Source: Polaromonas sp.
GTDB taxonomy: Bacteria > Pseudomonadota > Gammaproteobacteria > Burkholderiales > Burkholderiaceae_C
Length of the DNA stretch: 13,976 bases
Assembly: GCA_026786065.1 (NCBI GenBank)
Contig: JAJAYS010000367.1
Span: forward strand, 1-13,976
Reading direction: 5' to 3'
In this document: in pieces, positions 1-13,976 of the stretch
Numbering within the stretch: the first letter of the stretch is position 1
Layout: each line of letters opens with the position of its first letter
The notes under the pieces: generated by a model
Databases searched by the model: none
Seen by the model: the letters and a program-made list of their open reading frames with translations, nothing else
What the model was told of the DNA's origin: nothing
Position numbers and translations under genes: made by a program

Positions 1-1
1 C

Positions 2-85: not shown

Positions 86-250
86 CCGGTGGGGGGTGCG
101 CCTGCGGGGGGCGGCCCGACCGGGCCTGTCCTGTTTAGCGGGGCGGTGATCGAGACTCCACGCTGATTGCTGCGATGGTGCAGCCGTCGATAGCCCGGTT
201 GGGCCGTCGGGCCACATCCCGGCCGGGCTTGGCGCTGCCGCCGCAGCTGC

Positions 251-310
251 AGTCGCTATAAAATAAATAGCTGCTTACGCCCGTATTAATGGGCTTTAAG
301 CTGTTTTTTG
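251..310. repeat. AT-rich intergenic element with imperfect stem-loop
   Basis: Inside GC-rich DNA there is an abrupt AT-rich segment beginning with AGTCGCTATAAAATAAATAG. At its centre GCTT-ac-GCCC (273-282) pairs with GGGC-ttt-AAGC (291-301) around an eight-base loop. From memory it resembles a short dispersed intergenic element common in Comamonadaceae genomes, which starts with AGCTAT plus an AT run and then a GC hairpin. No second copy occurs in this window, so the repeat status is inference. Confidence 0.4.
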
Positions 311-381
311 CTTAAGTTTCAGTCCGACAAGAAGTCTGAGAGCGGGGCCCTCGGCCAGTCTGGCGCTCCGGCGCGCAAACC

Positions 382-412
382 AAAAAAAAGAGCGCCCAAG
401 CGCTCTTTTTTT
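382..412. terminator. Bidirectional intrinsic terminator
   Basis: GAGCGC (390-395) pairs perfectly with GCGCTC (400-405) around the loop CCAA. The stem is flanked by eight A on the left and seven T on the right. On the minus strand the hairpin is followed by a U run and lies 17 bases past the stop of the glycine-zipper gene. On the plus strand it would also stop the gene ending at 85. Confidence 0.9.
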
Positions 413-428
413 CAGCGGGAGGCGCGTC

Positions 429-1259: not shown

Positions 1260-1335
1260 CGGAAAACCTCGATACATCGCTAGGGTGAACTGGACGGCGC
1301 TCCAGCCGCCGCGTATCGGCCAGGCAGGCGCAATT

Positions 1336-1776
1336 TCAGTTAGTTGGAGGGTAGGCGGGTCGAGAAAGTTCGGTGCTGAAAGGTAAAGGCGGGGGAAAAA
1401 TCACGCTGGCTGGCGCTGCGGCCCGTGCCGCGCCGAGCCGACCGTTCCAGCCCGCTTCGTCAAAGCTGACCGTAATTTCGCCATCCCAGTCCATCACCGG
1501 CCGGCGGATCACGCTGGGCTGCGCCAGCATCAGCGCGCAGGCACTGGCTTCGTCGCACACCGCGAACTGGGAATCGGAGTCGAGATTGCGCCAGGTGGTT
1601 CCCCGGCGATTGATCAGTGTCCACCAGCCCAGTGCCTGAGACCATTTCGCAAGTTGTTGCGGCGGCACCCCGAGCTTTCTGAAATCATGAAATACGAAGG
1701 TGCAATCGTGCGCTTCAAGCCAGGCGCAGGCCTTTTTCACCGTGTCGCAGTTTGGAATGCCGTAGAGCGTGGTCAT
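1336..1776 (-). CDS. ArsC/Spx-family thioredoxin-fold protein (YffB-like)
   Basis: A small cytosolic protein of the arsenate reductase/Spx superfamily. The N-terminus TLYGIPNCDTVKKA places the single catalytic-type Cys at residue 10, with no second Cys of a CXXC pair. NRRGTTWR (57-64) and IRRPV (90-94) match the conserved ArsC-fold segments. This suits the YffB-like branch, whose substrate is not firmly known, better than a proven arsenate reductase, and no ars genes are nearby. The ATG at 1776 has AAGGGA seven bases upstream. The family fold should end near residue 116. Residues 117-146 are an Ala/Pro-rich extension of uncertain meaning. It lies 76 bp after a DUF5666 gene, behind an imperfect terminator. 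Confidence 0.85.
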   Translation of the reverse strand: MTTLYGIPNCDTVKKACAWLEAHDCTFVFHDFRKLGVPPQQLAKWSQALGWWTLINRRGTTWRNLDSDSQFAVCDEASACALMLAQPSVIRRPVMDWDGEITVSFDEAGWNGRLGAARAAAPASVIFPPPLPFSTELSRPAYPPTN

Positions 1777-1799
1777 TTGGACATCCCTTATAGAAGGTT

Positions 1800-1846
1800 A
1801 AAAAAAGAGGTGTGGCGGCCCTGAAACGCAATGCACGCGCCGCACC
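1800..1846 (-). terminator. Imperfect intrinsic terminator after the second DUF5666 gene
   Basis: Read on the minus strand, GGTGCGGCG pairs with CGCCACACC (eight of nine positions, one C-A mismatch) across a 20-base loop and is followed by TC and seven T. It starts seven bases after the DUF5666 stop and ends about 24 bases before the ArsC-like start. It probably reduces rather than abolishes transcription into that gene. Confidence 0.55.
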
Positions 1847-1852
1847 AAAAGG

Positions 1853-3082
1853 TCAGTTATCAATCGAAATTTCGGTAGCTTGAACGCGCGTGCCGCCGAC
1901 CGCGAGCGTCCCCTTGACCTTGATGGCGCGGCCAGCCAGATTCGACAGGTCGAGTGCGAGCCCGTCCTTGAATTCCACCGGGCGGTTGTAGTCCACCGTC
2001 ACGCCGCGCAACACAAAAGTTTTCGCGGTCGTGTTCAGTCCGCTGATGGTGCCGCGGAGTTCGAATTTGTACAGGTCGAATTCGTCTTCCAGTTCAATTT
2101 TTCTAGCGATCAGAACGCCATTTACCAGCCTGCCTTCGACTTCGACCCGCACGCCCAGCGCCAAGTTGGCCGGCGCCTGCATTTCACTGGCGTTGACTGG
2201 TACTCCGCCTACGCTGAACTGGGTGAGCGAGGTGATGGCCGTGACGGTACCTTCGATTTTTGCTTCCGCGACATCGCGGGATTCGAGTTCGCTCGCGCGA
2301 ATCGAGGTGGCGGTGCGGGCGCCTCCTGACTGGCCGCTGGCGGCCGGGCTGAGCTGAACGCGCACCACCAGAGCGTCGCGCAAAGCCAGCCCTGTTAAAT
2401 CGGCTGTTGCATAGCCGATGCTCAGCGCACCGATCGAAAAAGTCCGGGCCTGCGTGTTGAGATTGCGGATGGCCCCCTGCAGCTTGAACGCCTTGACGTC
2501 GGCGATGCGCTTTTTTTCGACCCGCGTGGCGCTCAGACTGTTGCTCGCCGGGTCGTTAAAACCGTGCAGTTCAAGGATGTTGCCGATGCTGACGGCTGCC
2601 AGGCCGGCCAGGCCGTCCTCTAATGTGGTTGTCGGGGAAATTTTTACGGTCTGTCCGAGGACCACCAGCGTTGCCGCTGCGGCATTGATGCTTTCAACTG
2701 GTCCGAGCAGCTCGCTGCGCACCTCAATGCTGTCGGCGTCGGCACGGAAGCCGTCCATACTTTTCGGCTGGCCCTTGATCCGCACGACCATGCCGAGTTT
2801 GAGCTGACCGCGCAGGTCCGTTCCACTGTCGATATCCCGAATGCTGCTGGCTTTCGAATCGTCAAAGCGGACACCAGCCACGATGATCGATCCAAAGCCG
2901 GTGATGGCCCCGGTTGAGAATGAACCGGTACCGCCACTGGAGACCCCGGCCAGTGAGCCGCCCGCACCATCCGCGCCGCCACCGCAGCCGGCCAGCGACA
3001 GCGCAGTGGCCCCAACCGTCAGCACGAGTGCGTTGCGCCGATTCAGGCGCTGGGGGAAAAAGGTGGTGGGAAGCTGTTTCAT
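1853..3082 (-). CDS. DUF5666 repeat lipoprotein (copy B)
   Basis: A predicted lipoprotein of 409 residues, function unknown. The frame is open to 3259, but the ATG at 3082 is the likely start. It gives a basic stretch (QRLNRRN), a hydrophobic core and a lipobox ending LAGC with the lipidated Cys at 33, then a Gly-rich linker. The rest reads as about five related beta-rich units (roughly 58-122, 125-190, 200-265, 275-333, 340-409). Each has a pattern like GxI..hN..t.TF.hgg..V followed by G..VEVEG or an equivalent, as in DUF5666. It is clearly paralogous to the 4074-5330 gene: EVEGRLVNGVL-ARKIELED is nearly identical in both. The start follows the DUF6502 gene by 38 bp, which suggests co-transcription. 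Confidence 0.88.
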   Translation of the reverse strand: MKQLPTTFFPQRLNRRNALVLTVGATALSLAGCGGGADGAGGSLAGVSSGGTGSFSTGAITGFGSIIVAGVRFDDSKASSIRDIDSGTDLRGQLKLGMVVRIKGQPKSMDGFRADADSIEVRSELLGPVESINAAAATLVVLGQTVKISPTTTLEDGLAGLAAVSIGNILELHGFNDPASNSLSATRVEKKRIADVKAFKLQGAIRNLNTQARTFSIGALSIGYATADLTGLALRDALVVRVQLSPAASGQSGGARTATSIRASELESRDVAEAKIEGTVTAITSLTQFSVGGVPVNASEMQAPANLALGVRVEVEGRLVNGVLIARKIELEDEFDLYKFELRGTISGLNTTAKTFVLRGVTVDYNRPVEFKDGLALDLSNLAGRAIKVKGTLAVGGTRVQATEISIDN

Positions 3083-3120
3083 GGTGTGCTTTCGTGAATA
3101 TTTACGGCCGCCGAAGGCTT

Positions 3121-3990
3121 TTAGCCCGGCTCCATTTTTATCGGAGACCAGCTGTACAGGCCAATGCGGATGCTCTGGTCCTGCGGCCGTCCCAGCTTGC
3201 GGTCTTGCTCGATCATTTTTTCCAACTGCGGCGCGATGTCGGTCAGCAGGCTGCGCCACTGCGCAGTCACGAGGCTCGCGGTTTCGACCAACGATTCGGC
3301 AGACAGCTCGTCTGCAAAAAGGGCTTGTTCAAGATGCTGCCGGCCGTCTTTCAGCACGTTGGCCACCGCTGCGCGGAAGTGATCGCCGACGTTGTCCCCC
3401 AAATGGTGAAGCATGCGGGACCAGTCGCCGCTCGGCACGAATGCGTCGCGCAGCAGCGCGACCTCATCGCCTTCAGGAACGAGCCGGGCCAGCTGAAGCC
3501 GGCACAGCTCATCGAGAAGGGTTCGGGGATGGACATCGCGCGTGACGCTTTGGGCCAGGGCTTCGAAGCTTGGGGCCGCACCTTGCCGCCGGAGCTGCAG
3601 CGGCTTGCCGTCCGCGCTGCGCCAGGCTGGGTCCGAAAGCCACCGGGTGAACAGTTCTGTGATGGGTGAACGCGGCGCTTGCGCCGCGCCGGTCGGGTTG
3701 CGGGACAGGCGGTCCACCTCGCGCCGCGTCAAGCCGGTGGCAGCGCTGATCCGGCTGGTCACCCGCGCCGAGGAGGTCGCGGGCTGGGCCTCATGCGCCG
3801 CTTCTACGAAGGCGATGCGCAGCCGCTCTTCAATGGCCTGGATTCGAATGCCTTTGGACAGGCACAGTTGCGCCAGTGGCGCAAGCACCCCGTCCAGCGC
3901 ACCCAATGCGGCGAGCTGGTCGGCATTCAAGGCCTCTGCCGCGTGGGCGTCCACCGGCGGAATTGGCGGAGCGGGGGGCGGCTTTTGCAT
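3121..3990 (-). CDS. DUF6502 family protein
   Basis: A cytosolic protein of 289 residues without signal peptide or membrane segment. The core from about residue 34 (LDGVLAPLAQLCLSKGI) through FVEAAHEA and SRISAATGLTRREVDRL (79-95) matches what I know as DUF6502. That segment has helix-turn-helix character, and residues about 108-186 look like a second winged-helix-like unit (LLDELCRLQLARL then an acidic turn). DNA binding is therefore plausible but is inference. The C-terminal third is helical (DHFRAAVANVL, SLVETASLVTAQW). The first 20 residues are Pro/Ala-rich. No Shine-Dalgarno is visible before the ATG at 3990. It is flanked on both sides by paralogous DUF5666 lipoprotein genes. Confidence 0.82.
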   Translation of the reverse strand: MQKPPPAPPIPPVDAHAAEALNADQLAALGALDGVLAPLAQLCLSKGIRIQAIEERLRIAFVEAAHEAQPATSSARVTSRISAATGLTRREVDRLSRNPTGAAQAPRSPITELFTRWLSDPAWRSADGKPLQLRRQGAAPSFEALAQSVTRDVHPRTLLDELCRLQLARLVPEGDEVALLRDAFVPSGDWSRMLHHLGDNVGDHFRAAVANVLKDGRQHLEQALFADELSAESLVETASLVTAQWRSLLTDIAPQLEKMIEQDRKLGRPQDQSIRIGLYSWSPIKMEPG

Positions 3991-4027
3991 GGTGTGAAAG
4001 GAGACTATAGACCGGGGGAACCGGATG

Positions 4028-4068
4028 CCTGCGGGTGGCCGGCAGATCCGGCGCCGGCCACCCGCAGG
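4028..4068 (-). promoter_or_regulatory. 15-bp perfect hairpin between DUF5666-A and DUF6502 genes
   Basis: CCTGCGGGTGGCCGG (4028-4042) and its exact complement (4054-4068) enclose an 11-base loop. It starts five bases after the stop of the upstream lipoprotein gene. No T run follows on either strand, so it is not a standard intrinsic terminator. It could protect the upstream mRNA's 3' end or attenuate transcription. Its function is inferred. Confidence 0.75.
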
Positions 4069-4073
4069 TCAAA

Positions 4074-5330
4074 TCAGTTCTCCAGAGAAATCCGGGTGGC
4101 CAAAATGCCATTGGTCTCGGACCGCACACCCTTGACTTCCACGTTCGCGCCGTTGCGCAGACCGGTCACAGTCAGACCAATGCCGTAGGTGGCCTTGGTG
4201 TAATCGACGGTTAGCCCACGCAGCACGAAGGTTTTGACCGTGGTGTCCAGCGCGCTGACGGTGCCGTGCAATTCGAACTTGTAGTTGTCTTCTTCATAGC
4301 CTTCGTCGTCTTCCAGTTCGATTTTTCTTGCTACCAGAACGCCATTCACCAATCTTCCTTCGACTTCCACCCGTGCTCCGATCACAACGCCGACTGGCAC
4401 CGTGGAGACGCTGGCATCCACCGGCAGCCCGTTGACGCTGAAACGGGTGCTGGACTCGACGCTGGTAACGATACCTTCGACTTCGGCCTCGTCGTGGTCT
4501 TCGTGTTCATACTCGGGTTTGCGGATCTTCAATGCAGTCCGGGTACCGGTCAGTGGCGTCACCGCCAGCCGCACGCGCACAACTAGCGCATTGGCCAGCA
4601 TCAAGCTGGTTGGCAGGTCGGCGGTCAGGTAGCTGATCGTCAAGCTGCCGATGTTGAAGGTTTTGGAGGCCGTGTTCAGCCCGCTGATCGCACCCTGCAG
4701 TTTGAAAACTTTGGCTTCGGCCTTGCGTTCAATGCGGGTGGCGGTAAGTGAGTTCGTCACCGGATTGACGAAGCCGTGAACCTCCACCATGGTTCCGGTC
4801 GCAAGCGTTGCAGCGGTGAGGCCGTCTCCGAAGAAGGTCGTCGCCGAGATCGTTGCGGTTTGCCCGAGTACCGTGATCGAGGTTGCCGTCACCAAATCGA
4901 TCGGACCCTGCAGCTCGCTGTGTACCTCAATGCTGTCGGCTTTGGCGCGGATGCTGACGCCGTCATCTGACTTCTTGCCGCCTTTGATTCGCACGACCAT
5001 ACCGAGCTTCAGGTCGCCGCGGCGCAAGCTGGCACCGTCGTCGTCCAGAATGCTGGCGGCCGAGTCGTCGTAGCGCACACCACCGACGATGATCGAGCCG
5101 AAGCCGGTGATGGCGCCATTTGCCGAGGAGGCAGTCCCCGGTGTACTCGCGCCGGTGCCCCCGGTCGAAACCGGGCCGCCGCCGCCGCCTCCGCCGCAAC
5201 CGGCGATCAATAGTGCGCCGCCCAGTACAGTAAGCATTAACCCGTTTCGGCGGGTGATGCCCGACGCTGACCCACCAGCTTTTCGGGAAGCAATGGGTGT
5301 GGGTGTCGAGTTTTGCACTATGTTCTTCAT
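4074..5330 (-). CDS. DUF5666 repeat lipoprotein (copy A)
   Basis: A predicted lipoprotein of 418 residues, function unknown. The signal region has RR-N at 27-29, a hydrophobic core (LMLTVLGGALLIAGC) and the lipidated Cys at 45, followed by a run of Gly and a Ser/Thr/Gly linker. About five DUF5666-like beta-rich units follow: 73-137, 139-202, 210-272, 283-341 and 351-418. Short acidic stretches (EYEHEDHDEAE near 273-283, EDDEGYEEDN near 340-349) sit between units and could bind cations, but that is inference. It is the first gene of the minus-strand cluster and diverges from folC across about 225 bp. Its leader shares an 11-of-12 motif with copy B at the same distance from the ATG, so the duplication included the start region. 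Confidence 0.88.
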   Translation of the reverse strand: MKNIVQNSTPTPIASRKAGGSASGITRRNGLMLTVLGGALLIAGCGGGGGGGPVSTGGTGASTPGTASSANGAITGFGSIIVGGVRYDDSAASILDDDGASLRRGDLKLGMVVRIKGGKKSDDGVSIRAKADSIEVHSELQGPIDLVTATSITVLGQTATISATTFFGDGLTAATLATGTMVEVHGFVNPVTNSLTATRIERKAEAKVFKLQGAISGLNTASKTFNIGSLTISYLTADLPTSLMLANALVVRVRLAVTPLTGTRTALKIRKPEYEHEDHDEAEVEGIVTSVESSTRFSVNGLPVDASVSTVPVGVVIGARVEVEGRLVNGVLVARKIELEDDEGYEEDNYKFELHGTVSALDTTVKTFVLRGLTVDYTKATYGIGLTVTGLRNGANVEVKGVRSETNGILATRISLEN

Positions 5331-5401
5331 GATGCGCTTTCGTGGTGATTGATGAGTGATTGCAGGGACCCGAGAAAACCTGGCTTTAGGCCGACAGGAA
5401 A

Positions 5402-5417
5402 CGCTTTACAAGCGCTT
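5402..5417. promoter_or_regulatory. Palindromic site in the leader of the DUF5666-A gene
   Basis: CGCTT (5402-5406) and AAGCG (5410-5414) form a 13-bp inverted repeat around TAC. It overlaps the self-complementary octamer AAGCGCTT (5410-5417). It lies between the predicted start of transcription and the DUF5666-A start codon, so it could be an operator or an mRNA structure. Confidence 0.3.
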
Positions 5418-5437
5418 TCGGGTTGAATAACTGTAAG

Positions 5438-5452
5438 TGTGCATAACGCACA
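5438..5452. promoter_or_regulatory. TGTGC-N5-GCACA inverted repeat, possible operator
   Basis: TGTGC (5438-5442) and GCACA (5448-5452) are perfect inverted half-sites with a five-base spacer. The site touches the downstream edge of the predicted minus-strand -10 box, which is where a repressor would block initiation. The regulator is unknown. The neighbouring DUF6502 protein is only a guess. Confidence 0.35.
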
Positions 5453-5480
5453 TTTAAAGCGAAATAATGTAACAAATCAA
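5452..5480 (-). promoter_or_regulatory. Predicted sigma70-type promoter of the DUF5666-A gene
   Basis: On the minus strand, TTGATT (complement of 5475-5480) is separated by 17 bases from TTAAAT (complement of 5452-5457). Each box matches the consensus at four of six positions. It sits in the most AT-rich part of the divergent intergenic region, about 120 bp upstream of the DUF5666-A start. Confidence 0.35.
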
Positions 5481-5539
5481 TACAAAAAACCGATTTTCAG
5501 AGGGGAATACCCCGTGAGAAGGCGTTTCCCGCCTTGCTT

Positions 5540-5545
5540 CATAAT
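5540..5545 (+). promoter_or_regulatory. Candidate -10 box of folC
   Basis: CATAAT matches TATAAT at five of six positions and ends ten bases before the folC ATG. No clear -35 hexamer is visible at the usual distance. The region holds two small hairpins instead (GGGG-aata-CCCC at 5502-5513; AAGGCG-tttcc-CGCCTT at 5519-5535). If used, it would give a nearly leaderless folC mRNA, which fits the absence of a Shine-Dalgarno. Confidence 0.3.
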
Positions 5546-5555
5546 TGTTTAAATC

Positions 5556-6878
5556 ATGAATACCCTGTCTGACTGGCTAGCCCATTGCGAGCGCCTTCAC
5601 CCCAAAACCATTGATATGGGCCTGGACCGCGTGCGTGCTGTGGCTGTGCGGATGGGGCTGGAATTTGCGTGCCCGGTCATTACCGTAGCTGGCACCAACG
5701 GCAAAGGTTCGACCTGCGCGATGCTGGAGGCGATCCTGCTTGAGGCGGGTTACCGAACCGGCTTGTACACCTCGCCGCACCTGGTGCATTTCGAGGAACG
5801 CTGCCGGGTGCGTGGCGACATCGTTCAGGCCGATGCGCTGGTCGCCAGCTTTGCCGTGGTCGAGCTTGCGCGCCAGCAGGGCGGCGAGCCGATTTCGCTC
5901 ACTTATTTTGAATTCACCACGCTGGCCATCCTGCATCTTCTGGCTGCATCAACCCTGGACGTGGTGATTCTGGAAGTCGGCCTCGGCGGACGGCTCGATG
6001 CGGTCAACCTGATAGACACCGACTGCGCGGTGATCACCAGCATCGATCTCGACCACACCGAGCTGCTGGGCAATGACCGCGAAAAGATCGGCTTTGAGAA
6101 GGCCGGCATCATGCGCGCCGGCAAGCCAGTTGTCGTCAGTGATCCGGTGCCGCCGCAGAGCGTGAGCGACCACGCCGCTGCAGTCGGTGCGGATTTGTGG
6201 CGCCTTGGCCGCGACTTCAATTTTTCCGGCGACAAACAGCAGTGGCGCTTTGCGACCTCGGCCGAAAGAGGCGCGCGGCGCTATGCCGGCATGGCTTACC
6301 CGGCGTTGCGCGGGGCCAATCAACTGGTCAACGCAGCCGGGGTACTGGCTGCGCTTGCCGCGCTTCGGGGCCGATTGCCAGTGACGGCCCAGGCGGTGCG
6401 CGTCGGCCTGTCACAGGTCGAGCTGCCGGGTCGCTTCCAGATTGTTCCCGGCCAGCCGACGCTGGTGCTGGATGTGGCGCACAACCCGCATTCGGTAGCG
6501 GCGCTGGCTGCCAACCTGGACGCCATGGGCTTTTACCCTTGCACGCACGCGATTTTTGGCGTGATGGCGGACAAGGATCTGGCAGCTATGCTGGATCGCA
6601 TCGCGCCCCTGATTGACCGCTGGTACTGCACCGATTTGCCCCTGGCGCGGGCCGCAAAGGCGGCCGATCTGGTTTCCCAACTGAGGGCTTCACCGGCCGG
6701 TCGAGGTGGCCTTGCGACCGCGTTTTTCGCTTGCGAGAGCCCTGCGCAGGCGCTGCAACAGGCGGTAAAAGCCGCCGACCCCGCTGATAGAATCGTGGTC
6801 TTTGGTTCATTCCATACAGTGGGTGGCGTTTTACAGGCCGGCCTGCCGCGTTTGGGCGCTGCCCACCTGAAAGCTTGA
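5556..6878 (+). CDS. folC: Bifunctional dihydrofolate synthase/folylpolyglutamate synthase
   Basis: FolC ligates L-glutamate to dihydropteroate, making dihydrofolate, and then extends the polyglutamate tail of folates, using ATP in the cytoplasm. The protein has 440 residues, normal for the family. Visible signatures are the N-terminal LSDWLAHCERLHPKTIDMGLD segment, the P-loop GTNGKGST (46-53), the YTSPHL motif, LEVGLGGRLDAVN, ITSIDLDHTELLG and, in the C-terminal Mur-ligase-type domain, VLDVAHNPHS and FGVMADKD. The ATG at 5556 gives the family's standard N-terminus, although no Shine-Dalgarno precedes it. It opens the plus-strand cluster and is followed by a SPOR-domain gene after 122 bp, the usual order in Burkholderiales. 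Confidence 0.97.
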   Translation: MNTLSDWLAHCERLHPKTIDMGLDRVRAVAVRMGLEFACPVITVAGTNGKGSTCAMLEAILLEAGYRTGLYTSPHLVHFEERCRVRGDIVQADALVASFAVVELARQQGGEPISLTYFEFTTLAILHLLAASTLDVVILEVGLGGRLDAVNLIDTDCAVITSIDLDHTELLGNDREKIGFEKAGIMRAGKPVVVSDPVPPQSVSDHAAAVGADLWRLGRDFNFSGDKQQWRFATSAERGARRYAGMAYPALRGANQLVNAAGVLAALAALRGRLPVTAQAVRVGLSQVELPGRFQIVPGQPTLVLDVAHNPHSVAALAANLDAMGFYPCTHAIFGVMADKDLAAMLDRIAPLIDRWYCTDLPLARAAKAADLVSQLRASPAGRGGLATAFFACESPAQALQQAVKAADPADRIVVFGSFHTVGGVLQAGLPRLGAAHLKA

Positions 6879-6894
6879 CGGCTGGAGCGCCGTC
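6877..6894 (+). terminator. Hairpin at the folC stop codon without U tract
   Basis: GACGGC (6877-6882) pairs with GCCGTC (6889-6894) around TGGAGC. The left arm overlaps the folC stop codon and no T run follows, so it may be a weak pause or stability element rather than a true terminator. Confidence 0.3.
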
Positions 6895-7000
6895 TGATCA
6901 GAAAACGCCAGAGTCCCTAGTTTTGCGTCGTGTCTGACTGGCAAGCGCTGCATGGCAGACGAAGCCACCGCTGCTGACTACCGCGCCCCCCAGCCATACC

Positions 7001-7765
7001 ATGTCATTTTTCAACCTTCGCCGCAGCGAGCCTGCCGTTCCGAACGCGCCTTCGGCCACGCATCCCGAGAGTGCGGACTTGGTGCGCAGGCGTGCGAAGC
7101 ACCGGTTCATCGGTTCGGCGGTTTTGGTTCTGGCCGGGGTACTGGGCTTTCCGCTGCTTTTCGACACCCAGCCGCGACCGGTCCCGGTAGATATCCCGAT
7201 CGAGATTCCAGCCCGCAATGCCGCTGCGCCGTTGAAGGTAGCGCCTACCGACGCTGCATCCAAATCGCCGCCTGCCGCCAAGGCCGTGCAGGCCGAAAAA
7301 ATCGACATCGATGCAGGCTTGGGCGACAAGGAAGAGATTTTTAAGCCAAAACAGGCTGAGAGCCAGCCTTTACGGGCGCAGGCAGCTATTAAAACAGAAG
7401 CGAGACCGCTGCTCAAGACTGAAGTGAAGGCTGAACCGAAGGCAGAGGCTAAGGCGCCGTTGCCGGAGGCTCGGCTGGTTGCCAGGGCTGCGCCAGCCGC
7501 CGCAGCGACCGAGGCGTCCAAAGGCGCGCTGGAGGAAGCACGGCTGGTGGTCCAGGTCGGGGCGTTTTCAGACGCCGAAAAAGCCCGCGATGCCCGTCTC
7601 AAGCTGGAGAAAGCCGGGCTCAAAACCTACACCCAAGTGACCGAGACCAAAGACGGCAAACGTACGCGCGTGCGCGTCGGCCCATTTCTGACCAAGGCCG
7701 AGGCCGAGAAGGCCGCAGTCAGGATCAAGGCGCTCGACCTGCCGGCGGCAATTTTGTCGCTCTAG
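7001..7765 (+). CDS. SPOR-domain inner-membrane protein
   Basis: A predicted single-pass (type II) membrane protein of 254 residues. A short cytoplasmic segment with a basic cluster (RRRAKHR, 29-35) precedes one membrane span (about 36-54, ending FPLLF). A long Ala/Pro/Lys/Glu-rich periplasmic linker (about 55-175) leads to a C-terminal SPOR domain (about 178-254: LVVQVGAFSDAEKARDARL, then RTRVRVGPFLTKAEAEKAA). SPOR domains bind denuded glycan strands of septal peptidoglycan, so a role at the division site is likely. FtsN- and DedD-like proteins share this layout, but I do not assign either name. No clear Shine-Dalgarno precedes the ATG. It lies between folC and cvpA, as in related genomes. 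Confidence 0.92.
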   Translation: MSFFNLRRSEPAVPNAPSATHPESADLVRRRAKHRFIGSAVLVLAGVLGFPLLFDTQPRPVPVDIPIEIPARNAAAPLKVAPTDAASKSPPAAKAVQAEKIDIDAGLGDKEEIFKPKQAESQPLRAQAAIKTEARPLLKTEVKAEPKAEAKAPLPEARLVARAAPAAAATEASKGALEEARLVVQVGAFSDAEKARDARLKLEKAGLKTYTQVTETKDGKRTRVRVGPFLTKAEAEKAAVRIKALDLPAAILSL

Positions 7766-7782
7766 CAGCCCGGCGCAAACAA

Positions 7783-8268
7783 ATGCTCACCACGGACTGG
7801 ATCCTCCTCGGCGTGCTCGCCCTGTCGATGCTGGTCGGCGCCTGGCGCGGTCTGGTTTACGAGGTGTTGTCGCTGGTTGGATGGGTGCTGGCGTTTTACG
7901 CGGCGCAGTGGCTGGCGCCGCAAGTTTCTGTGCTGCTGCCCTTGCAGTCGGTGTCGCAGTCGGTGCGGTATGCGGCGGCTTTTGCTCTGGTTTTTGTCGT
8001 CTTCATTTTTGTTTGGGGGCTGCTGGTGTTTCTGGTCAAAAAGCTGGTCGATTCAATCGGCATGCGGCCGGTGGACCGCACGATGGGCGCCGCATTTGGC
8101 CTGGTGCGTGGCCTGGTGCTGCTGCTTGCCGCCACGGTGGTAATCAACATGACGGCATTCAAGCGCAGCGACTGGTGGCAGGAGTCGGCCGGAGCGATGG
8201 CGCTGACCAGCCTCCTGAAGGGGTTGAAACCCGCGCTTCCGGAACGATTTGCCCAATATCTCGTGTAG
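7783..8268 (+). CDS. cvpA: CvpA family membrane protein
   Basis: An inner-membrane protein of 161 residues with four predicted membrane segments (about 4-24, 29-50, 63-87 and 102-124). The motifs DWILLGVLALSMLVGAWRGL near the start and VDRTMGAAFGLVRGL in the third cytoplasmic/membrane region are typical of CvpA. CvpA was named for colicin V production in E. coli and is linked to envelope homeostasis. Its molecular activity is unsettled. It starts 17 bp after the SPOR gene and precedes purF, the same cvpA-purF pairing found in E. coli. Confidence 0.94.
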   Translation: MLTTDWILLGVLALSMLVGAWRGLVYEVLSLVGWVLAFYAAQWLAPQVSVLLPLQSVSQSVRYAAAFALVFVVFIFVWGLLVFLVKKLVDSIGMRPVDRTMGAAFGLVRGLVLLLAATVVINMTAFKRSDWWQESAGAMALTSLLKGLKPALPERFAQYLV

Positions 8269-8298
8269 CGCGCAGCCCATTTTTTCCAGGTCAACCCA

Positions 8299-8325
8299 AT
8301 GAATCGAACACCATGTGCGGAATAG
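8299..8325 (+). CDS. Possible eight-codon upstream ORF overlapping the purF start
   Basis: ATG at 8299 followed by AATCGAACACCATGTGCGGAA and TAG at 8323-8325 reads MNRTPCAE in a different frame from purF. AGG at 8288-8290 is eight bases before it, whereas nothing resembling a Shine-Dalgarno precedes the purF ATG at 8313. It could load ribosomes that restart at purF, or it could be chance. Confidence 0.25.
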   Translation: MNRTPCAE

Positions 8326-9830
8326 TCGGCGTTGTCAGTCAAGCACCGGTCAACCAGTTGATCTACGACGGCTTGCTGCTGCTGCAGCACCGGGGTCAGG
8401 ATGCGGCCGGCATCGTGACGCAGCAGGCGCGCAAATTCTTCATGCACAAGGCCAAGGGCATGGTGCGCGATGTTTTTCGCACGCGCAACATGCGCGCCCT
8501 GCCGGGTAACGTCGGTCTGGGCCAGGTGCGCTACCCGACTGCCGGCAACGCCTACAGCGAAGACGAGGCCCAGCCTTTTTATGTCAACGCGCCGTTCGGG
8601 CTGGTGCTCTCGCATAACGGCAACCTCACCAACGCCGCCGAACTGAAAGCCGAGCTGTTCAACACCGACCATAGGCACATCAATACCGACAGCGACTCTG
8701 AAGTGCTGCTCAATGTGTTGGCGCATGAGCTTGAGAAAACCACGCGCGGCCTGGCGCTCTCTGCAGCCGATGTGTTTGCGGCGGTGCGTGGTGTCCACAG
8801 GCGCGTCAAGGGCTCGTATGCGGTGGTCGCTTTGATCGCCGGGCACGGCATGCTGGCCTTTCGGGACCCCTTCGGCATCCGTCCGCTGTGCATCGGTCAC
8901 GGCAGCAACGAAAACGGCAGCACCGTGATGGTCGCCAGCGAATCCGTGGCACTGGAAGGCACGGCCCACCAGCTTGACCGCGACATCGCGCCGGGCGAGG
9001 CGGTGTTCGTCGATATGAACGGCAAGGTGCAGGCCGAGCAGTGCGCGGTCGGCGCCAAGCTCAGCCCGTGTATTTTCGAGTTCGTCTATTTGGCCCGGCC
9101 CGACTCGGTGCTCGACGGCATATCGGTGTACCAGGCGCGATTGAACCTGGGCGAAACGCTGGCCAAGCGCGTCGTCTCCACGGTCCCGCCCAACCAGATC
9201 GACGTCATCATTCCGATACCCGAGTCGAGTCGGCCAAGCGCCACTCAACTGGCACACCTGCTGGGCATTCCATATCGGGAAGGCTTCGTCAAAAACCGCT
9301 ACGTCGGACGCACTTTCATCATGCCGGGGCAGGGCGTTCGCAAGAAGTCGGTGCGCCAGAAGCTCAACGTGATCGCCAGCGAGTTCAAGGGCCGCAATGT
9401 GCTGTTGGTGGACGACTCAATCGTGCGCGGCACCACCAGCCGCGAGATCGTGCAGATGGCGCGCGATGCCGGTGCCAAAAAGGTGTACTTGGCGAGCGCC
9501 GCGCCGCCAGTGCGTTACCCCAATGTGTACGGCATCGATATGCCGACTGCCGACGAGCTGGTGGCGCACGACCGCACCGTCGAGCAGATTCGCGCGGCCA
9601 TCGGCTGCGACGCGCTGATCTACCAAGACGTCGCAGGCATGAAACGCGCCGTCGGCTCGCTCAACACGAGGCTCGACGGCTTCGATGCGTCCTGCTTCGA
9701 CGGCATTTACATCACCGGCGACATCACCCCGGAGAGCATTGCCAGGATGAACGCGCAGCGCACCGATAGCGCCGATGAAGGCGACGTGGACGTGTCGCGG
9801 CTGGCCCTACCGAATCCGCAGGAGGCGTGA
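8313..9830 (+). CDS. purF: Amidophosphoribosyltransferase
   Basis: PurF transfers ammonia from glutamine to PRPP, giving 5-phosphoribosylamine, the first committed step of purine synthesis. The protein has 505 residues, as expected. The ATG at 8313 is fixed by the sequence MCGIVGVV: Cys2 becomes the N-terminal nucleophile of the glutaminase after Met removal. An open frame extends upstream to 7881, but that part is a shadow over cvpA. The glutaminase half shows GLLLLQHRGQDAAG, GQVRYPTAG and SHNGNLTNA. The phosphoribosyltransferase half shows the PRPP motif VLLVDDSIVRGTT at 363-375. It lies 44 bp after cvpA and four bases ahead of metZ. Confidence 0.97.
   Translation: MCGIVGVVSQAPVNQLIYDGLLLLQHRGQDAAGIVTQQARKFFMHKAKGMVRDVFRTRNMRALPGNVGLGQVRYPTAGNAYSEDEAQPFYVNAPFGLVLSHNGNLTNAAELKAELFNTDHRHINTDSDSEVLLNVLAHELEKTTRGLALSAADVFAAVRGVHRRVKGSYAVVALIAGHGMLAFRDPFGIRPLCIGHGSNENGSTVMVASESVALEGTAHQLDRDIAPGEAVFVDMNGKVQAEQCAVGAKLSPCIFEFVYLARPDSVLDGISVYQARLNLGETLAKRVVSTVPPNQIDVIIPIPESSRPSATQLAHLLGIPYREGFVKNRYVGRTFIMPGQGVRKKSVRQKLNVIASEFKGRNVLLVDDSIVRGTTSREIVQMARDAGAKKVYLASAAPPVRYPNVYGIDMPTADELVAHDRTVEQIRAAIGCDALIYQDVAGMKRAVGSLNTRLDGFDASCFDGIYITGDITPESIARMNAQRTDSADEGDVDVSRLALPNPQEA
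9820..9825 (+). promoter_or_regulatory. Strong ribosome binding site of metZ
   Basis: AGGAGG lies inside the last codons of purF, eight bases before the metZ ATG at 9834. It is the best Shine-Dalgarno in the cluster and fixes the metZ start. Its position implies translation coupled to the end of purF. Confidence 0.85.
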
Positions 9831-9833
9831 GGC

Positions 9834-11048
9834 ATGAGTGACGGCAATCTTCCTGACGGTCTGCACCGGGACACCCTCGCCCTGCGCGTGGCAATTGAGC
9901 GCAGCCAGCACGGCGAGCATTCCGAGGCCTTGTACCTGACCAGCGGCTTCGTTCAGCCCGATGCCGAAACCGCTGCCCGGCGCTTCGCCGGCACCGAAGC
10001 CGGCTTTACCTATGGCCGCACCTCCAGCCCGACCGTGACCAGCTTCGAGCAGCGTCTTGCTGCGATGGAAGGCACCGAGGCAGCGATCGGGGCCTCCACC
10101 GGCATGGGCGCGATCCTGATGATGTGCATGGGCCTGCTCAAGAGCGGTGACCACGTAATCTGCTCGCAATCGATGTTCGGCTCGACGCTGGCGCTGATCG
10201 GCCGGGAGTTCGGCAAATTCGGTGTCGAAACCACCTTCGTTTCGCAAACCGAGGTCGGCGAATGGCGCGCCGCGCTGCGGCCGACCACCAAGCTGCTGTT
10301 CGCCGAAACACCGACAAATCCGCTGACCGACGTGTGCGACATTGCCGCGCTGGCCGATCTGGCGCACAGCGTGGGTGCCTTGCTGGCGGTGGACAACTGC
10401 TTTTGCTCGCCTGCGCTGCAGCGCCCGGTCGAATTCGGTGCCGACCTGGTGATCCATTCAGGCACCAAATACCTCGATGGCCAGGGCCGGGTCATGGCCG
10501 GCGCGATTTGCGGGCCTGCGCGACTGATCGTTGACGTCTTCGGTCCCATCGTGCGCACCGGCGGCATGACGCTCTCGCCGTTTAGCGCCTGGGTGGTGCT
10601 GAAGGGGTTGGAGACTCTGGGCATCCGCATGCAGGCGCAAAGCGCCAACGCGCTGGCGGTGGCACGCTGGCTCGAAGCGCAGGCCGGTGTTTCGCGGGTG
10701 TACTACCCAGGCCTGGCCTCGCATCCGCAGCACGAACTGGCGATGCGCCAGCAATCTGGCGTCGGCGGCGCAGTGCTGTCGTTCGATCTTGGTGGCAACT
10801 CGGCTGAAGCGGCGCGGGCCAGGGCGTTTCATGTAATAGACAGCACGCGGGTCGTCAGCATTGCGACCAATCTGGGCGACACCAAAACCATCATCACGCA
10901 CCCCGGCACCACTTCGCATGGCCGGCTGAGCGAAGCCCAGCGCCAGGCTGCCGGCATTGGTCAGGGCCTGATTCGTCTTGCGGTGGGACTCGATCACATC
11001 GACGACCTCAAGGCCGACCTGCTGCGGGGTCTGGACAGTTTGAAATGA
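9834..11048 (+). CDS. metZ: O-succinylhomoserine sulfhydrylase
   Basis: A PLP enzyme of the Cys/Met-metabolism family that makes homocysteine directly from O-succinyl-L-homoserine and sulfide in methionine synthesis. The protein has 404 residues, normal for the family. Visible motifs are [21 protein letters not shown] (substrate and PLP region), [13 protein letters not shown], the PLP aspartate in AVDNCF, and the Schiff-base lysine K212 in [31 protein letters not shown] follows in the C-terminal domain. The [12 protein letters not shown] form and the purF neighbour favour MetZ over cystathionine gamma-synthase (MetB) or a gamma-lyase, but these paralogs share the fold. The stop overlaps the gltX start (ATGA). 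Confidence 0.93.
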
Positions 11049-12445
11049 CCTTGAAAATACGCACCCGCTTTGCACCATCACCGACCGGCTTCATCCACCT
11101 CGGAAACATCCGCTCGGCGCTCTATCCGTGGGCGTTTGCCCGTGCCAGCGGCGGCGACTTCATTTTGCGCATCGAAGACACCGACTTGGAGCGTTCCAAT
11201 CAGGCCTCGGTCGATGTCATCATCGAGGGCATGCGCTGGCTCGGGCTCGACTACGACGAAGGCCCGATTTTCCAGATGCAGCGCATGGCCCGGTACAAAG
11301 CGGTGTTGCATGCGCTGCAGGCGAGTGGCCAGGTTTATTCCTGCTACATGAGCATCGCCGAGCTAGACGCGCTGCGCGAGCAGCAAATGGCAGAAAAGCA
11401 AAAGCCGCGTTACGACGGCACCTGGCGGCCAGAGCCGGGCAAGACGCTGCCGCCGGTGCCGCAAGGCGTCTTGCCGGTGCTGCGCTTTCGGAATCCAGAA
11501 GACGGCGCGGTAGTCTGGGACGACAAGGTCAAAGGCCGCATCGAGATCGCCAACAGCGAGCTCGACGACCTGGTAATTGCGCGGCCCGACGGCACTCCGA
11601 CCTACAACTTTTGCGTGGTGGTCGATGACATCGACATGGCGATCACGCATGTGATTCGCGGCGACGACCACGTCAACAACACCCCACGCCAGATCAACAT
11701 CTTTCGCGCTATGGGAAAGCCGGTGCCGGTCTATGCGCACCTGCCCACCGTGCTCAATGGGCAGGGCGAAAAAATGAGCAAGCGCAGCGGTGCCAAAGCG
11801 GTCACCGCCTACACCAGCGAAGGCTACCTGCCCGACGCTATGGTCAACTACCTGGCCCGTCTGGGGTGGAGCCACGGCGACGATGAAATTTTTAGCCGTG
11901 CGCAATTTTTGCAGTGGTTCGACCTGGATCACCTGGGGCGAAGTGCCGCGCAGTTCGACGAAGCCAAGCTGCGCTGGGTAAACAGCCAGCATTTGAAGGC
12001 GATGGTGGATGCCGATCTGGCTGAACGGGTGCGCCCCTTCCTGGCCACTAAACCCGCCGCAGGGTTGCCGGCCGACCGCCTGCTACGCGGCTGCGCGCTG
12101 TTCAAAGACCGCTGCAGCACGCTGGTCGAACTGGCCGATTGGCTGTCGGTGCTGGTCGCAGGCGGCAGCCCGAGCCGGGACGATCTTCAGACGCATGTGA
12201 CCGATGCTGTGCGGCCCGCGTTGGTCAGCTTGCAGCGCGCGTTGGCCGAATGCGAATGGACCCGGGCCGGCATTGCGGCAGCGATCAAGCAGGTGCTGGC
12301 CACCTGCAATCTGAAGATGCCGCAATTGGCCATGCCGGTTCGGGTCTTGGTCGCTGGAACGGCGCATACGCCATCGCTCGATGCGCTGCTTGAGTTGATG
12401 CTTCGCGAAGACGTGGCGGCCCGCCTTTCAGCTTCCGGCAGCTGA
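11045..12445 (+). CDS. gltX: Glutamyl-tRNA synthetase
   Basis: This class I aminoacyl-tRNA synthetase charges tRNA(Glu) with glutamate. The protein has 466 residues, typical for bacteria. The N-terminus [21 protein letters not shown] contains the HIGH-type motif HLGN (18-21). [34 protein letters not shown] and the KMSKS-type loop KMSKR (243-247) follow, then a helical anticodon-binding domain. The segment that carries zinc ligands in the E. coli enzyme has only one Cys here (YSCYMS) and reads PRYDGTWR, so the zinc site appears to be absent. The ATG at 11045 overlaps the metZ stop. The tRNA-Glu gene lies about 280 bp downstream in its own operon. GluRS rather than GlnRS, because the sequence follows the bacterial GluRS pattern throughout. 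Confidence 0.97.
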
Positions 12446-12471
12446 GAGCACGTTATTTTTCTGGCTATAAT
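12442..12471 (+). promoter_or_regulatory. Promoter of the tRNA operon
   Basis: A perfect TATAAT (12466-12471) stands just past the gltX stop. A weak -35-like CTGAGA (12442-12447, four of six matches) sits 18 bases upstream and overlaps the gltX stop codon. The predicted start is near 12478, about 110 bases before tRNA-Ala. The leader holds two small hairpins: GCGAT 12513-12517 with ATCGC 12527-12531, and GCTTG-ATTT-CAAGC at 12541-12554. Confidence 0.7.
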
Positions 12472-12587
12472 TCAAGGCTCGACAGATGCAGCAAACGCTT
12501 ATGGCTTTTGCCGCGATCATCGGAAAATCGCAGAAACCAGGCTTGATTTCAAGCGGAATTTTCGGGTTTGATGGGCGGCAAATTTCG

Positions 12588-12663
<76 letters not shown>

Positions 12664-12728
12664 AATTTGATTCGCCGCTCGGTTTTTGCGCGAGTTGTTC
12701 CGGGAATTTTTCCGGATTACAAGGTTTT

Positions 12729-12804
12729 GACCCCATCGTCTAGAGGCCTAGGACACTACCCTTTCACGGTAGGTACCGGGGTTCGAATCCCCGTGGGGTC
12801 GCCA
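12729..12804 (+). tRNA. tRNA-Glu (anticodon TTC)
   Basis: A 76-nt cloverleaf. Acceptor GACCCCA pairs with TGGGGTC. The anticodon stem CTACC/GGTAG encloses CTTTCAC with TTC at 12763-12765. The T arm contains GGTTCGAATCC, discriminator base G is followed by encoded CCA. It lies 65 bases after tRNA-Ala, and the spacer holds one weak hairpin (TCCGG 12699-12703 with CCGGA 12712-12716). Confidence 0.97.
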
Positions 12805-12809
12805 GCATT

Positions 12810-12830
12810 CATCACGCTTCATGCGTGATG
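12810..12830 (+). other. Perfect hairpin just after tRNA-Glu
   Basis: CATCACGC (12810-12817) pairs with GCGTGATG (12823-12830) around TTCAT. A second small hairpin, TGCGC-AAG-GCGCA (12829-12841), follows and shares its first two bases with this stem. With no T run this is more likely a processing or stability element of the tRNA precursor than a terminator. Confidence 0.6.
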
Positions 12831-12846
12831 CGCAAGGCGCAAGTTA

Positions 12847-12925
12847 GATAACGGAAAACCTGCGAAAGCAGGCCAGCCGGCCCGCAAGGGCAGGCGACTT
12901 GGCTCGAAAGAGCGAACCCGTTGTC
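12847..12925 (+). ncRNA. Predicted cloverleaf-like RNA element with three GNRA tetraloops
   Basis: GATAACGG (12847-12854) can pair with CCGTTGTC (12918-12925) in eight pairs, one of them G-U. Inside lie three hairpins: CCTGC-GAAA-GCAGG (12859-12872), GCC-g-GCCC-GCAA-GGGC-a-GGC (12876-12895) and GCTC-GAAA-GAGC (12902-12913). All three loops are GNRA. The 79-nt size and three-armed layout resemble a tRNA, but with no seven-base loops, no T-arm motif and no CCA. It must be part of the tRNA operon transcript. I do not recognise a named RNA family, and its function is unknown. Confidence 0.55.
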
Positions 12926-12932
12926 GCTATCA

Positions 12933-13009
12933 GGAGTGGTAGTTCAGTTGGTTAGAATACCGGCCTGTCACGCCGGGGGTCGCGGGTTCGAGTCCCGTCC
13001 GCTCCGCCA
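12933..13009 (+). tRNA. tRNA-Asp (anticodon GTC)
   Basis: A 77-nt cloverleaf. Acceptor GGAGTGG pairs with CCGCTCC (one G-U). The anticodon stem CCGGC/GCCGG encloses CTGTCAC, so the anticodon is GTC. The T arm contains GGTTCGAGTCC, discriminator G is followed by encoded CCA. It is the last tRNA of the operon. The integrase-like gene starting at 13101 makes its 3' half a candidate attachment site. Confidence 0.97.
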
Positions 13010-13016
13010 GACTCTC

Positions 13017-13042
13017 AAAAGGCCCGTATTCACGGGCCTTTT
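13017..13042 (+). terminator. Intrinsic terminator of the tRNA operon
   Basis: AAAAGGCCCGT (13017-13027) pairs perfectly with ACGGGCCTTTT (13032-13042) around ATTC, giving a GC stem with a T run, seven bases after the tRNA-Asp CCA. The palindrome also works on the minus strand. Confidence 0.93.
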
Positions 13043-13100
13043 GTCTTTCTGAGTCCCCAACAGGTGAGCCGCCGCAGCGAGCCACTTTTGGAGCTCAGTC

Positions 13101-13955
13101 ATGCGAATTCCGGCCTACCTGCGGCTTTCCCGACACGGGATTTATTTCTTCCGCATCTGCATTCCGGTCCCTTTGCAGGATCGATGGCGCAGTGGTCGGG
13201 AGTTGAAGGTGTCGTTACGCACGCGGGATCAGCGGCTCGCACTGGGGCGCGCCCGGGGCCTGGCCATCGCCGCCCACAAACACTTCGGTTACGCTTTAGC
13301 CGATATGAGCGTCAAACCATTCGATCCCGATGACATGACGACTTGGCCTACCGAGGCCAGCAACATCCGGCGGTTCGAGAAGACCATCGAGACCGTGAAT
13401 TCGGCCGAAGGCGTAATCGAGAGGGTCAAGTACAAAGTCGACCCAACCTCACCTGCCGACATCGCTGCCGCGCGTGCCGATGAGGTCTTGCATCAAAAGC
13501 GACAGCGTCTCATGCGGCAGCCGAACTCTCCGGAGGCGCAGGCGTTTTTTGAAGCGGAGCGAGAAGAGCTGCGACGCAGTGTGATGGCGGATGCTCAGTT
13601 GGCCGAGGCGAGACGAAGTGCTGAACTGGCGGAACTGCAAGGCAAGATCAAGGCGGCAGGTCAACCGGCAGTCCGGCCACCGTTGGCACTGACGGCTGCG
13701 TCCGCGAGCGTTGAGCACCAGCTCAAGGCCTGGAGTGAAGCATTTTGCAGCGCCCCTGCAAGCGACTCGCGCGAGTCCAAAGCGGCTTTGCGTGAACTGC
13801 AAACCAGGCACGAAGGATTGCAGCGCGACCTGCGCCGAAAAGAGAGGGCGCTGGCGGAAGCGGCAGCCCTGCTGGTGCTTACCAAAAAAAGTTCCAGGCG
13901 CTGTTGGGGGACGAGGACTGATGAGCGATGCCCAACAACGCAAAGACCTGCTTGA
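13101..13955 (+). CDS. Truncated integrase fused to an IS orfA C-terminus (chimeric ORF)
   Basis: A 284-codon frame with GGAG seven bases before its ATG. Residues 1 to about 60 (AYLRLSRHGIYFFRICIPVP, then LKVSLRTRDQRLALGRARGLA) match the N-terminal domain I know as DUF6538, found at the front of tyrosine recombinases of genomic islands. A charged helical region follows to about 200. No catalytic Arg...HxxR...Tyr domain exists, so it cannot be an active recombinase. From about 207 on (QLKAWSEAF, then LQRDLRRKERALAEAAALLVL) the sequence looks like the C-terminal coiled coil of an IS3-type orfA. The last 23 residues (SSRRCWGTRT...) look frameshifted. The join is near 13715, inferred from motif change. 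It stands just behind tRNA-Asp, as island integrases do. Confidence 0.7.
   Translation: MRIPAYLRLSRHGIYFFRICIPVPLQDRWRSGRELKVSLRTRDQRLALGRARGLAIAAHKHFGYALADMSVKPFDPDDMTTWPTEASNIRRFEKTIETVNSAEGVIERVKYKVDPTSPADIAAARADEVLHQKRQRLMRQPNSPEAQAFFEAEREELRRSVMADAQLAEARRSAELAELQGKIKAAGQPAVRPPLALTAASASVEHQLKAWSEAFCSAPASDSRESKAALRELQTRHEGLQRDLRRKERALAEAAALLVLTKKSSRRCWGTRTDERCPTTQRPA
13884..13890 (+). other. A7 slippage tract at the end of orfA
   Basis: Seven A follow ACC and precede GTTCC. In the reading frame of the coiled coil the sequence goes on as AAA AAA AGT and loses orfA similarity. One extra A, or a -1 slip on the second AAA codon, would give KKKFQALLGDED and the normal stop. A +1 shift here would instead enter the orfB frame. 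Confidence 0.65.
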
Positions 13956-13976
13956 GCTGATTGAGCAGGCCTGCAC
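13921..13976 (+). CDS. Start of IS3-type orfB transposase (partial)
   Basis: ATG at 13921 opens MSDAQQRKDLLELIEQAC and continues past the window edge. The start overlaps the expected orfA stop by one base. The sequence resembles the start of orfB proteins that carry an N-terminal helical/HTH region before the DDE integrase core (for example LIEQA...GAR-type openings). Only 18 codons are visible, so the assignment depends mostly on the orfA remnant before it. Confidence 0.6.
   Translation, partial: MSDAQQRKDLLELIEQAC

Follow-up and report, generated by a model that had tools for sequence, protein, structure and literature searches.

A conserved pseudoknot in the spacer between tRNA-Glu and tRNA-Asp genes of Polaromonas and its relatives, with a proposed role in pre-tRNA maturation

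The spacer between the tRNA-Glu and tRNA-Asp genes of a Polaromonas sp. contig (JAJAYS010000367.1 of assembly GCA_026786065.1, positions 1 to 13,976 of the forward strand, hereafter the window) represents, on balance probably, a conserved H-type pseudoknot within a tRNA-Ala/Glu/Asp precursor that serves in cis during pre-tRNA maturation. Comparison with related spacers shows two predicted interlocked helices (S1 and S2), a hairpin (P3) in the third loop, hairpin insertions, and the location of the element. The four-way junction proposed in a first-pass annotation of the same DNA is thereby replaced by a conserved pseudoknot that carries hairpin inserts in particular lineages. The interest of the element lies in a family-wide pseudoknot that is kept by compensating changes in a tRNA precursor and to which the upstream tRNA often contributes its CCA end.

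The gene order begins with gltX (11045-12445), which is followed by a tRNA cluster on the same plus strand, where both ARAGORN and Rfam place tRNA-Ala(GGC) at 12588..12663, tRNA-Glu(UUC) with an encoded CCA at 12729..12804, and tRNA-Asp(GUC) at 12933..13009. A sigma-70-type promoter-like site (12442..12471, plus strand; 10 of 12 matches in a consensus scan, a pattern only and not functional evidence) overlaps the end of gltX upstream of the cluster, and an intrinsic-terminator-like hairpin with a 12-pair stem (13016..13043, plus strand; likewise only a pattern match in a scan) lies 3' of tRNA-Asp. The 128-nt Glu-Asp spacer, which contains the structure at 12847-12925, has no ORF of at least 90 aa and, by pattern scan, contains neither a promoter-like nor a terminator-like site. 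The source genome, about 84% complete, holds a single copy of the element, with other matches spanning just 14-26 nt, and a mobile or repeated element was rejected on this basis. Beyond tRNA-Asp and the terminator-like hairpin, an ORF in 13101-13976 carries an N-terminal DUF6538 domain, a domain that occurs in integrases, and about 13763-13974 shows 70-80% identity to DNA annotated as IS3-family transposase; the region is apparently an integrase-type gene next to a tRNA, fused with or disrupted by an insertion sequence. On the minus strand (1853-5330), DUF5666 proteins are encoded at 1853-3259 and 4074-5330 with a DUF6502 gene (3121-3990) between them, the latter overlapping the longest call of the 1853-3259 ORF.

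Direct reading confirmed the 8-bp closing stem of the first-pass annotation (12847-12854/12918-12925, seven Watson-Crick pairs plus U12849-G12923), and the three hairpins that it was said to enclose are all present: the first at 12859-12863/12868-12872 with a GAAA loop, the middle one at 12876-12878 and 12880-12883 paired with 12888-12891 and 12893-12895, with a GCAA loop and a G12879-A12892 mismatch, and the third at 12902-12905/12910-12913, again with GAAA. The minimum-energy fold includes the closing stem together with all three hairpins (-41.3 kcal/mol, z -3.78, 0 of 200 shuffles equally stable). A chance origin had been considered unlikely, in agreement with 20,000 dinucleotide shuffles of the 79 nt, none of which contained three GNRA hairpins of at least four Watson-Crick pairs and only five of which contained two, for a feature picked post hoc, after being seen. 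The proposal of a structured RNA between tRNA-Glu and tRNA-Asp is also borne out, as the covariation check suggested at that time, when run on Glu-Asp spacers, revealed conserved, covarying stems with compensating changes. What does not survive is the four-way junction as a conserved unit, since its two inner hairpins are insertions missing from most spacers read. The three GNRA arms are accordingly not shared by relatives, and GNRA loops are not required, as the P3 loops of other genera include TTCG and larger non-GNRA loops. Two further suggestions were rejected: a degenerate tRNA, as ARAGORN and Rfam detect only the three flanking tRNAs and no tRNA match in the spacer; and an alternative partner for the first arm through the hexamer GCAGGC, which does occur twice (12868-12873 and 12890-12895) as claimed, in an arm found in no other listed inserted-form spacer.

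The pseudoknot arises from a five-base strand, CAAGU at 12840-12844, located 2 nt 5' of the closing stem and complementary to ACUUG at 12897-12901 within that stem. This helix, S1, was overlooked in the first-pass annotation because its 5' strand falls just beyond the closing stem. Along the plus strand, the putative architecture starts with a predicted hairpin, P0 (12811..12829), that separates the pseudoknot from the CCA of tRNA-Glu and is missing where S1 starts at the CCA end. It continues with the S1 5' strand (12840..12844), identified by its complementarity and by compensating changes in relatives, a UA loop 1 (12845..12846), and the S2 5' strand, identical to that of the closing stem (12847..12854). 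Two inserted GNRA hairpins follow: I1 (GAAA, 12859..12872), in a form unseen in relatives, and I2 (GCAA, 12876..12895), at a place where many same-genus relatives carry one hairpin. Thereafter come the S1 3' strand (12897..12901), for which relatives hold a matching strand; P3, GCUC-GAAA-GAGC (12902..12913), which is the third hairpin of the earlier description and is supported by covariation and RNAalifold in relatives; the remainder of loop 3, GAAC (12914..12917), A-rich in many relatives; and the S2 3' strand (12918..12925), which like its partner is predicted by folding and covaries in relatives. A tail, GCUAUCA (12926..12932), leads to tRNA-Asp, with CUACCA or CUGCCA found in 88 of 175 distinct Glu-Asp leaders.

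The strands alternate in the order S1 5', S2 5', S1 3', S2 3' expected of an H-type pseudoknot, with compensating changes in both helices. Adjacent, stackable helices with a short loop 1 are also typical of this class, and a scripted parse returned a junction of 0-1 nt in 116 of 159 spacers, a count in which some inserted forms are misparsed. The window's own form departs from this adjacency through a 42-nt insertion at the S2/S1 junction that contains two hairpins, and it is these two hairpins that create the appearance of three GNRA hairpins. Forcing S1 in the window at the expense of S2 costs 5.7 kcal/mol relative to the plain fold. Pseudoknot scores of single sequences are weak in general (mean z 1.2; p < 0.05 against shuffles for 43% of the 77 spacers scored), so the case for the pseudoknot rests on comparison.

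The comparison covered 183 distinct Glu-Asp spacers, 3 nt to 128 nt in length, from same-genus genomes, a family-wide sample, named contigs, and one further genus, and was concerned almost exclusively with spacers of this type (loci are designated L below). In the simplest form, the CCA of tRNA-Glu is followed by AGU, U or UU, the S2 5' strand, (A/G)CUUG, a hairpin, often an A-rich stretch, the S2 3' strand, a tail, and tRNA-Asp; the CA of CAAGU is thus the end of the tRNA-Glu CCA, and the partner ACUUG lies between both S2 strands. Of 159 parsed spacers, 70 have an S1 that starts in this manner, its first two bases being the final two of CCA, while the remaining ones, including the window, have a hairpin or other insert between CCA and CAAGU. 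Loop 1, usually 0-2 nt overall, is U or UU in 60 of those 70, and many relatives have zero nucleotides between S2 and S1. In the window's clade the S2 5'/S1 3' junction usually carries one hairpin, with two or a longer insert in a few species; junction inserts of this kind occur in 36 of the 183 distinct spacers, the pattern search having listed 37, one of which has no insert. Spacers close to that of the window were found at L010 (same genus) and L091 (Polaromonas sp. CF318).

An S1-type strand pair is present in 164 of the 183 distinct spacers by a loose pattern test that admits chance pairs, and 18 of 158 spacers were left unparsed by the structure parse, a few of them holding an imperfect version. 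Units of tRNA-Glu, pseudoknot, and tRNA-Asp occur as tandem repeats of two or three at L015, L024, L027, L030, L050, L203, and L262, and in several of these loci S2 or P3 has diverged between copies. Three of the 183 distinct spacers are 10 nt or shorter, with no space for a pseudoknot, and spacers without the element occur elsewhere in the family (e.g., L066-L068, L191, L211, L215, and L255), which indicates that the tRNA-Glu/tRNA-Asp gene pair can function without it. At L034, from the same genus, a plain GACAACG-GCAA-CGTTGTC hairpin precedes GCTACCA; here S1 and P3 seem to have been lost, and S2 to be capped directly by a GNRA loop. Assemblies of L064 and L276 show runs of about 100 N between tRNA-Glu and tRNA-Asp, which are probably scaffolding gaps at tandem units.

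Evidence for S1 comes mainly from alignment A5, which comprises 63 segments (53 of the 57 in a first set, the drops including the misparsed L063_2 and L221_1, plus 10 added). In A5, 24 double-change S1 cells were counted against 7.2 in shuffled data, and the S1 covariation score was 0.295 against 0.181, neither value being reached in 500 shuffles. The proportion of S1 cells that pair, 99.0% against 93.7% shuffled (0 of 500), is biased in favor of S1, the segments having been cut at S1 boundaries. Weaker measures were less decisive: two-sided changes affect 3 of 5 S1 pairs against 2.0 shuffled (14 of 500 shuffles reach 3), and further pair types show no excess (5 against 5.0, 491 of 500). The variants in A5 are CAAGU/ACUUG, CAGGC/GCCUG, CAGGU/ACCUG, and CGGGC/GCCCG, the last three carried by the genus designated g101, and at L280 two copies within one genome differ in S1 by a U-A to C-G swap. 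Outside A5, CAAGC/GCUUG occurs in two same-genus species (L021 and L022) and in another genus (L226). Exceptions include a broken last pair (CAAGC/ACUUG) at L028, L029, L224, and L252, and single mismatches at L025, L083, and L135. When S1 strands were chosen by sequence pattern and S2, S1 pairing not being demanded, all five pairs formed in 139 of 159 parsed spacers (mean 113 and maximum 123 in 1,000 shuffles). In several inserted forms, including the window and L138, the parser took an incorrect S1 strand, and several of the misses are of this kind. Most of the S1 variation comes from one genus and a few species, and relatedness is not accounted for in the shuffles.

Helix S2 and hairpin P3 were assessed in further alignments, and since none of the covariation shuffles takes relatedness into account, their outcomes are counts and not probabilities. 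In A2, for which 13 of 66 cores were hand-picked for uniform P3 and aligned without structure, 91.3% of cells pair and 7 of 15 pairs show two-sided changes; double-change cells in the whole structure, including S1, number 13 against 4.1 in shuffled data, with none of 500 shuffles reaching the observed value. Further pair types, a weaker measure, were matched or exceeded by 87 of 500 shuffles. The S2 3' strand is misplaced in A1 (MAFFT, 55 of the 66 diverse cores), which was excluded from the counts. A covariance model of S2 and P3, with S1 left out, was built from A2, and its search of 100 loci yielded 105 matches at E up to 5, a few of them by chance. Alignment A4 contains 75 rows fitted to this model, 67 of them distinct, from 67 loci chosen for at least one spacer without a junction insert; 12 of these loci were unmatched at E up to 1 (L057, L059, L060, L062, L063, L064, L192, L210, L212, L222, L258, and L259), and A4 retains a match far from the spacer (L015:2525-2598) as well as a misaligned row (L015:1578-1624).

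Across the whole structure, including S1, A4 has 102 double-change cells against 17.7 shuffled (0 of 500), a signal that is abolished by shifting partners by 1-3 columns; less telling is the tally of pairs changed on both sides, 8 against 5.5 in shuffled data, which 30 of 500 shuffles equal or exceed. Three S2 positions show four or five pair types each, and RNAalifold recovers S2 and P3 with two-sided changes in 8 of 9 pairs, from an alignment itself fitted to S2 and P3. In A4, 98.8% of S1 cells pair although S1 lies outside the covariance model, a figure that tells little alone, S1 being nearly invariant there. The inserted form of the window was represented by A6, a MAFFT-only alignment of 34 of 37 such spacers that omits L019_1 (mis-cut), L024_2 (no insertion), and L053_1 (near-duplicate). 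In A6, 95.4% of cells pair, 5 of 7 S2 pairs show two-sided changes, and the whole structure, including S1, has 42 double-change cells against 8.4 shuffled (0 of 500), with the window and L304, both misaligned on the 5' side, counted unchanged.

The distribution of the element points to a single bacterial family, the carriers by name being Polaromonas, Rhodoferax, Delftia, Ottowia, Ramlibacter, and their kin, in which at least five loci (L039, L187, L206, L220, and L256) have a tRNA-Asp not preceded by tRNA-Glu. Among other families of the order, surveyed through 24 loci from 24 families with one tRNA-Asp locus per genome, tRNA-Glu precedes tRNA-Asp in only one (L239) and tRNA-Val does so in 21; the L239 spacer has CAAGUUUGAUUGGUGCUUG, possibly a relative of the element. 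Covariance-model scans at the order and class levels found it in 5 of 300 and 1 of 274 genomes, all of the window's family, and the six matches have the same lengths as the Glu-Asp spacer elements in their loci. These scans are insensitive, scoring about 20 candidates per genome and missing known carriers, so the family limit rests on the gene order at tRNA-Asp loci. In the window's own genome, the junction insertion limited the model to the S1 3' strand and P3 of the window's copy, and one weak match at E 8.8 was also returned. Rfam (release 15) at gathering thresholds gave only tRNA matches in the window and eight relative loci, and no match in the Glu-Asp spacers of six loci at E up to 1. 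Such a motif is not reported in the accessible parts of the literature searched, motif-discovery surveys included, most subscription papers being beyond reach. As far as Rfam 15 and these literature searches show, the pseudoknot is a new structured-RNA motif.

Several explanations can be considered for these observations. A plain multi-hairpin domain in the form of a four-way junction, with ACUUG and CAAGU kept for other reasons, would draw on a non-pseudoknotted fold that is stable alone and on the invariance of S1 in most species; it is hardly credible given the compensating changes in S1 and the lack of the inner hairpins in most relatives read. The spacer might instead act as a passive insulator, in which any compact fold suffices to protect a long spacer against Rho loading and against misfolding with the tRNAs, the pseudoknot being one solution retained by inertia. 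Spacers of just 3-7 nt, the family spacers lacking the element that are listed above, and the freedom with which hairpins are added would all agree with this; however, one knotted topology maintained by compensating changes in both helices is left unexplained, and the proposal appears rather unlikely. A folded RNA released by tRNA processing could also persist as a stable by-product sRNA acting in trans, as does the E. coli RNA from the spacer after leuZ. Such a role is decidedly improbable, as S2, P3, and the insertions vary in sequence, the best-kept stretch, ACUUGG, is already engaged in S1, and no conserved unpaired seed is visible in the alignments.

Another possibility is that the element is a natural tRNA-like pseudoknot within a tRNA transcript and itself a substrate of RNase P, cut in loop 1. 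Liberation of the tRNA-Asp 5' end would leave an upstream piece ending with S2 followed by RCCA or RCC (or RCC and a few nucleotides); S2 stacked on S1 would then be taken as an acceptor arm and loop 1 would be cut, just after the tRNA-Glu CCA where S1 starts at the CCA end. According to the accessible part of one study, E. coli RNase P RNA cuts a model H-type pseudoknot in loop 1 only with a GCCAC trailer after helix 2, with the highest rates for U before the cut, and the status of pseudoknots as in vivo targets was called an open question in 2025 (PMC12710915). Among the 70 spacers whose S1 takes in the CCA end, the U or UU loop 1 of 60 would suit such a cut. Two of the 70 show R-C-C immediately 3' of S2; another 31 would do so once the outermost S2 pair, U-R, is opened, an arrangement that by definition places U before the cut, and 26 have 1-2 nt and then RYCA at the exact end. 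RYCA also ends 94 of 175 distinct Glu-Asp leaders and none of 37 other tRNA-Asp leaders. Yet none of these arrangements is found in 11 of the 70, nor in 41 of the 89 other parsed spacers (some of these parses being wrong), the cut would fall away from the CCA end in the long forms, ACCACTGC precedes tRNA-Asp also where tRNA-Val is upstream (L230), and the published cutting was slow in the part of the study available, at about 0.2% per minute for one variant (PMC12710915). The tail may instead be kept to pair with the tRNA-Asp 5' strand, to which the leader (12926-12942 in the window) and its counterparts in relatives are complementary (CUACCA/UGGUAG or CCACU/AGUGG); the best helix has a mean of 5.8 pairs against 4.25 shuffled and 4.8 in the 37 other leaders. 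Where tRNA-Asp carries GGAGCGG, the leaders of L265 and L286 have CCGCTGC in place of CCACTGC, while CUACCA is unaltered in L072, L105, and L199. The window's tail ends in AUCA, one base from RCCA. Cleavage of the knot by RNase P is improbable overall; if true, a single enzyme would make both internal cuts, leaving tRNA-Glu with a few extra 3' nucleotides, and the element would be a pseudoknot that RNase P naturally cleaves in vivo.

The preferred explanation remains a cis-acting processing domain, and we infer that the element is co-transcribed with the tRNAs and acts in cis as a compact folded domain. Its duplication together with both tRNAs, the lack in its spacer of an ORF of at least 90 aa and of promoter-like or terminator-like sites, and the conservation of topology rather than sequence favor a cis role over a trans-acting RNA. 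Such a domain may help cut the two tRNAs from their shared transcript. The RNA would run from the S1 5' strand through loop 1, the S2 5' strand, the S1 3' strand, a loop 3 with P3 and often an A-rich stretch, the S2 3' strand, and the tail to tRNA-Asp; in the window's clade, a hairpin splits S1 from CCA, and one or two GNRA hairpins have been inserted at the S1/S2 junction. Once folded, the pseudoknot could prevent the tRNAs from misfolding onto the spacer and block exonucleases and RNase E inside it, leaving separation to cuts at the edges, with RNase P at the tRNA-Asp 5' end and subsequent trimming of the tRNA-Glu 3' end. Where S1 includes the CCA end, this end would be hidden until the knot opens, so that RNase P action on tRNA-Glu would be delayed and the cuts ordered, the knot possibly holding back tRNA-Glu until tRNA-Asp is released. 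The accessible part of PMC9433436 describes E. coli tRNAs on which RNase P is slowed when the 3' RCCA pairs with the leader, and attributes the order of polycistronic cuts to structural features; a delay of tRNA-Glu processing by the knot is conceivable on this precedent. The detachment of S1 from CCA in the window's clade indicates that CCA hiding is not the common function. As a natural system, the element could be used to ask how structured spacers determine the order of cleavage in polycistronic tRNA transcripts, and whether pseudoknots are acted on by RNase P in living cells.

Among known systems, the H-type pseudoknots of the biotin aptamer, the TYMV tRNA-like structure, and preQ1 riboswitches likewise consist of two interlocked helices, with a short loop 1 across S2 and a longer loop 3 across S1, and an extra hairpin inside loop 3 is known from preQ1-II. 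The spacer element differs from them in lying between two tRNA genes and not ahead of a coding gene, in the absence of an Rfam match, and, in the window form, in its 42-nt two-hairpin junction insert. E. coli 3'ETS-leuZ is also a spacer RNA released by tRNA processing, whereas the spacer alignments show no conserved unpaired target-binding region. The TYMV structure used by RNase P resembles the element in being a pseudoknot followed by (R)CCA, in the available part of PMC12710915; in contrast, the spacer element lies inside a tRNA transcript and would acquire an RCCA end only once tRNA-Asp is cut, the window's tail reads AUCA, and aminoacylation and RNase P cutting are hypothetical here. A further parallel may be drawn with E. 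coli valVW and valU, where structure beside a tRNA or pairing of the 3' RCCA slows RNase P: there, as far as the accessible part of PMC9433436 describes, the partner of RCCA is a stem-loop or two bases of the leader, whereas in the spacer element the CCA end would be held by a pseudoknot in the trailer.
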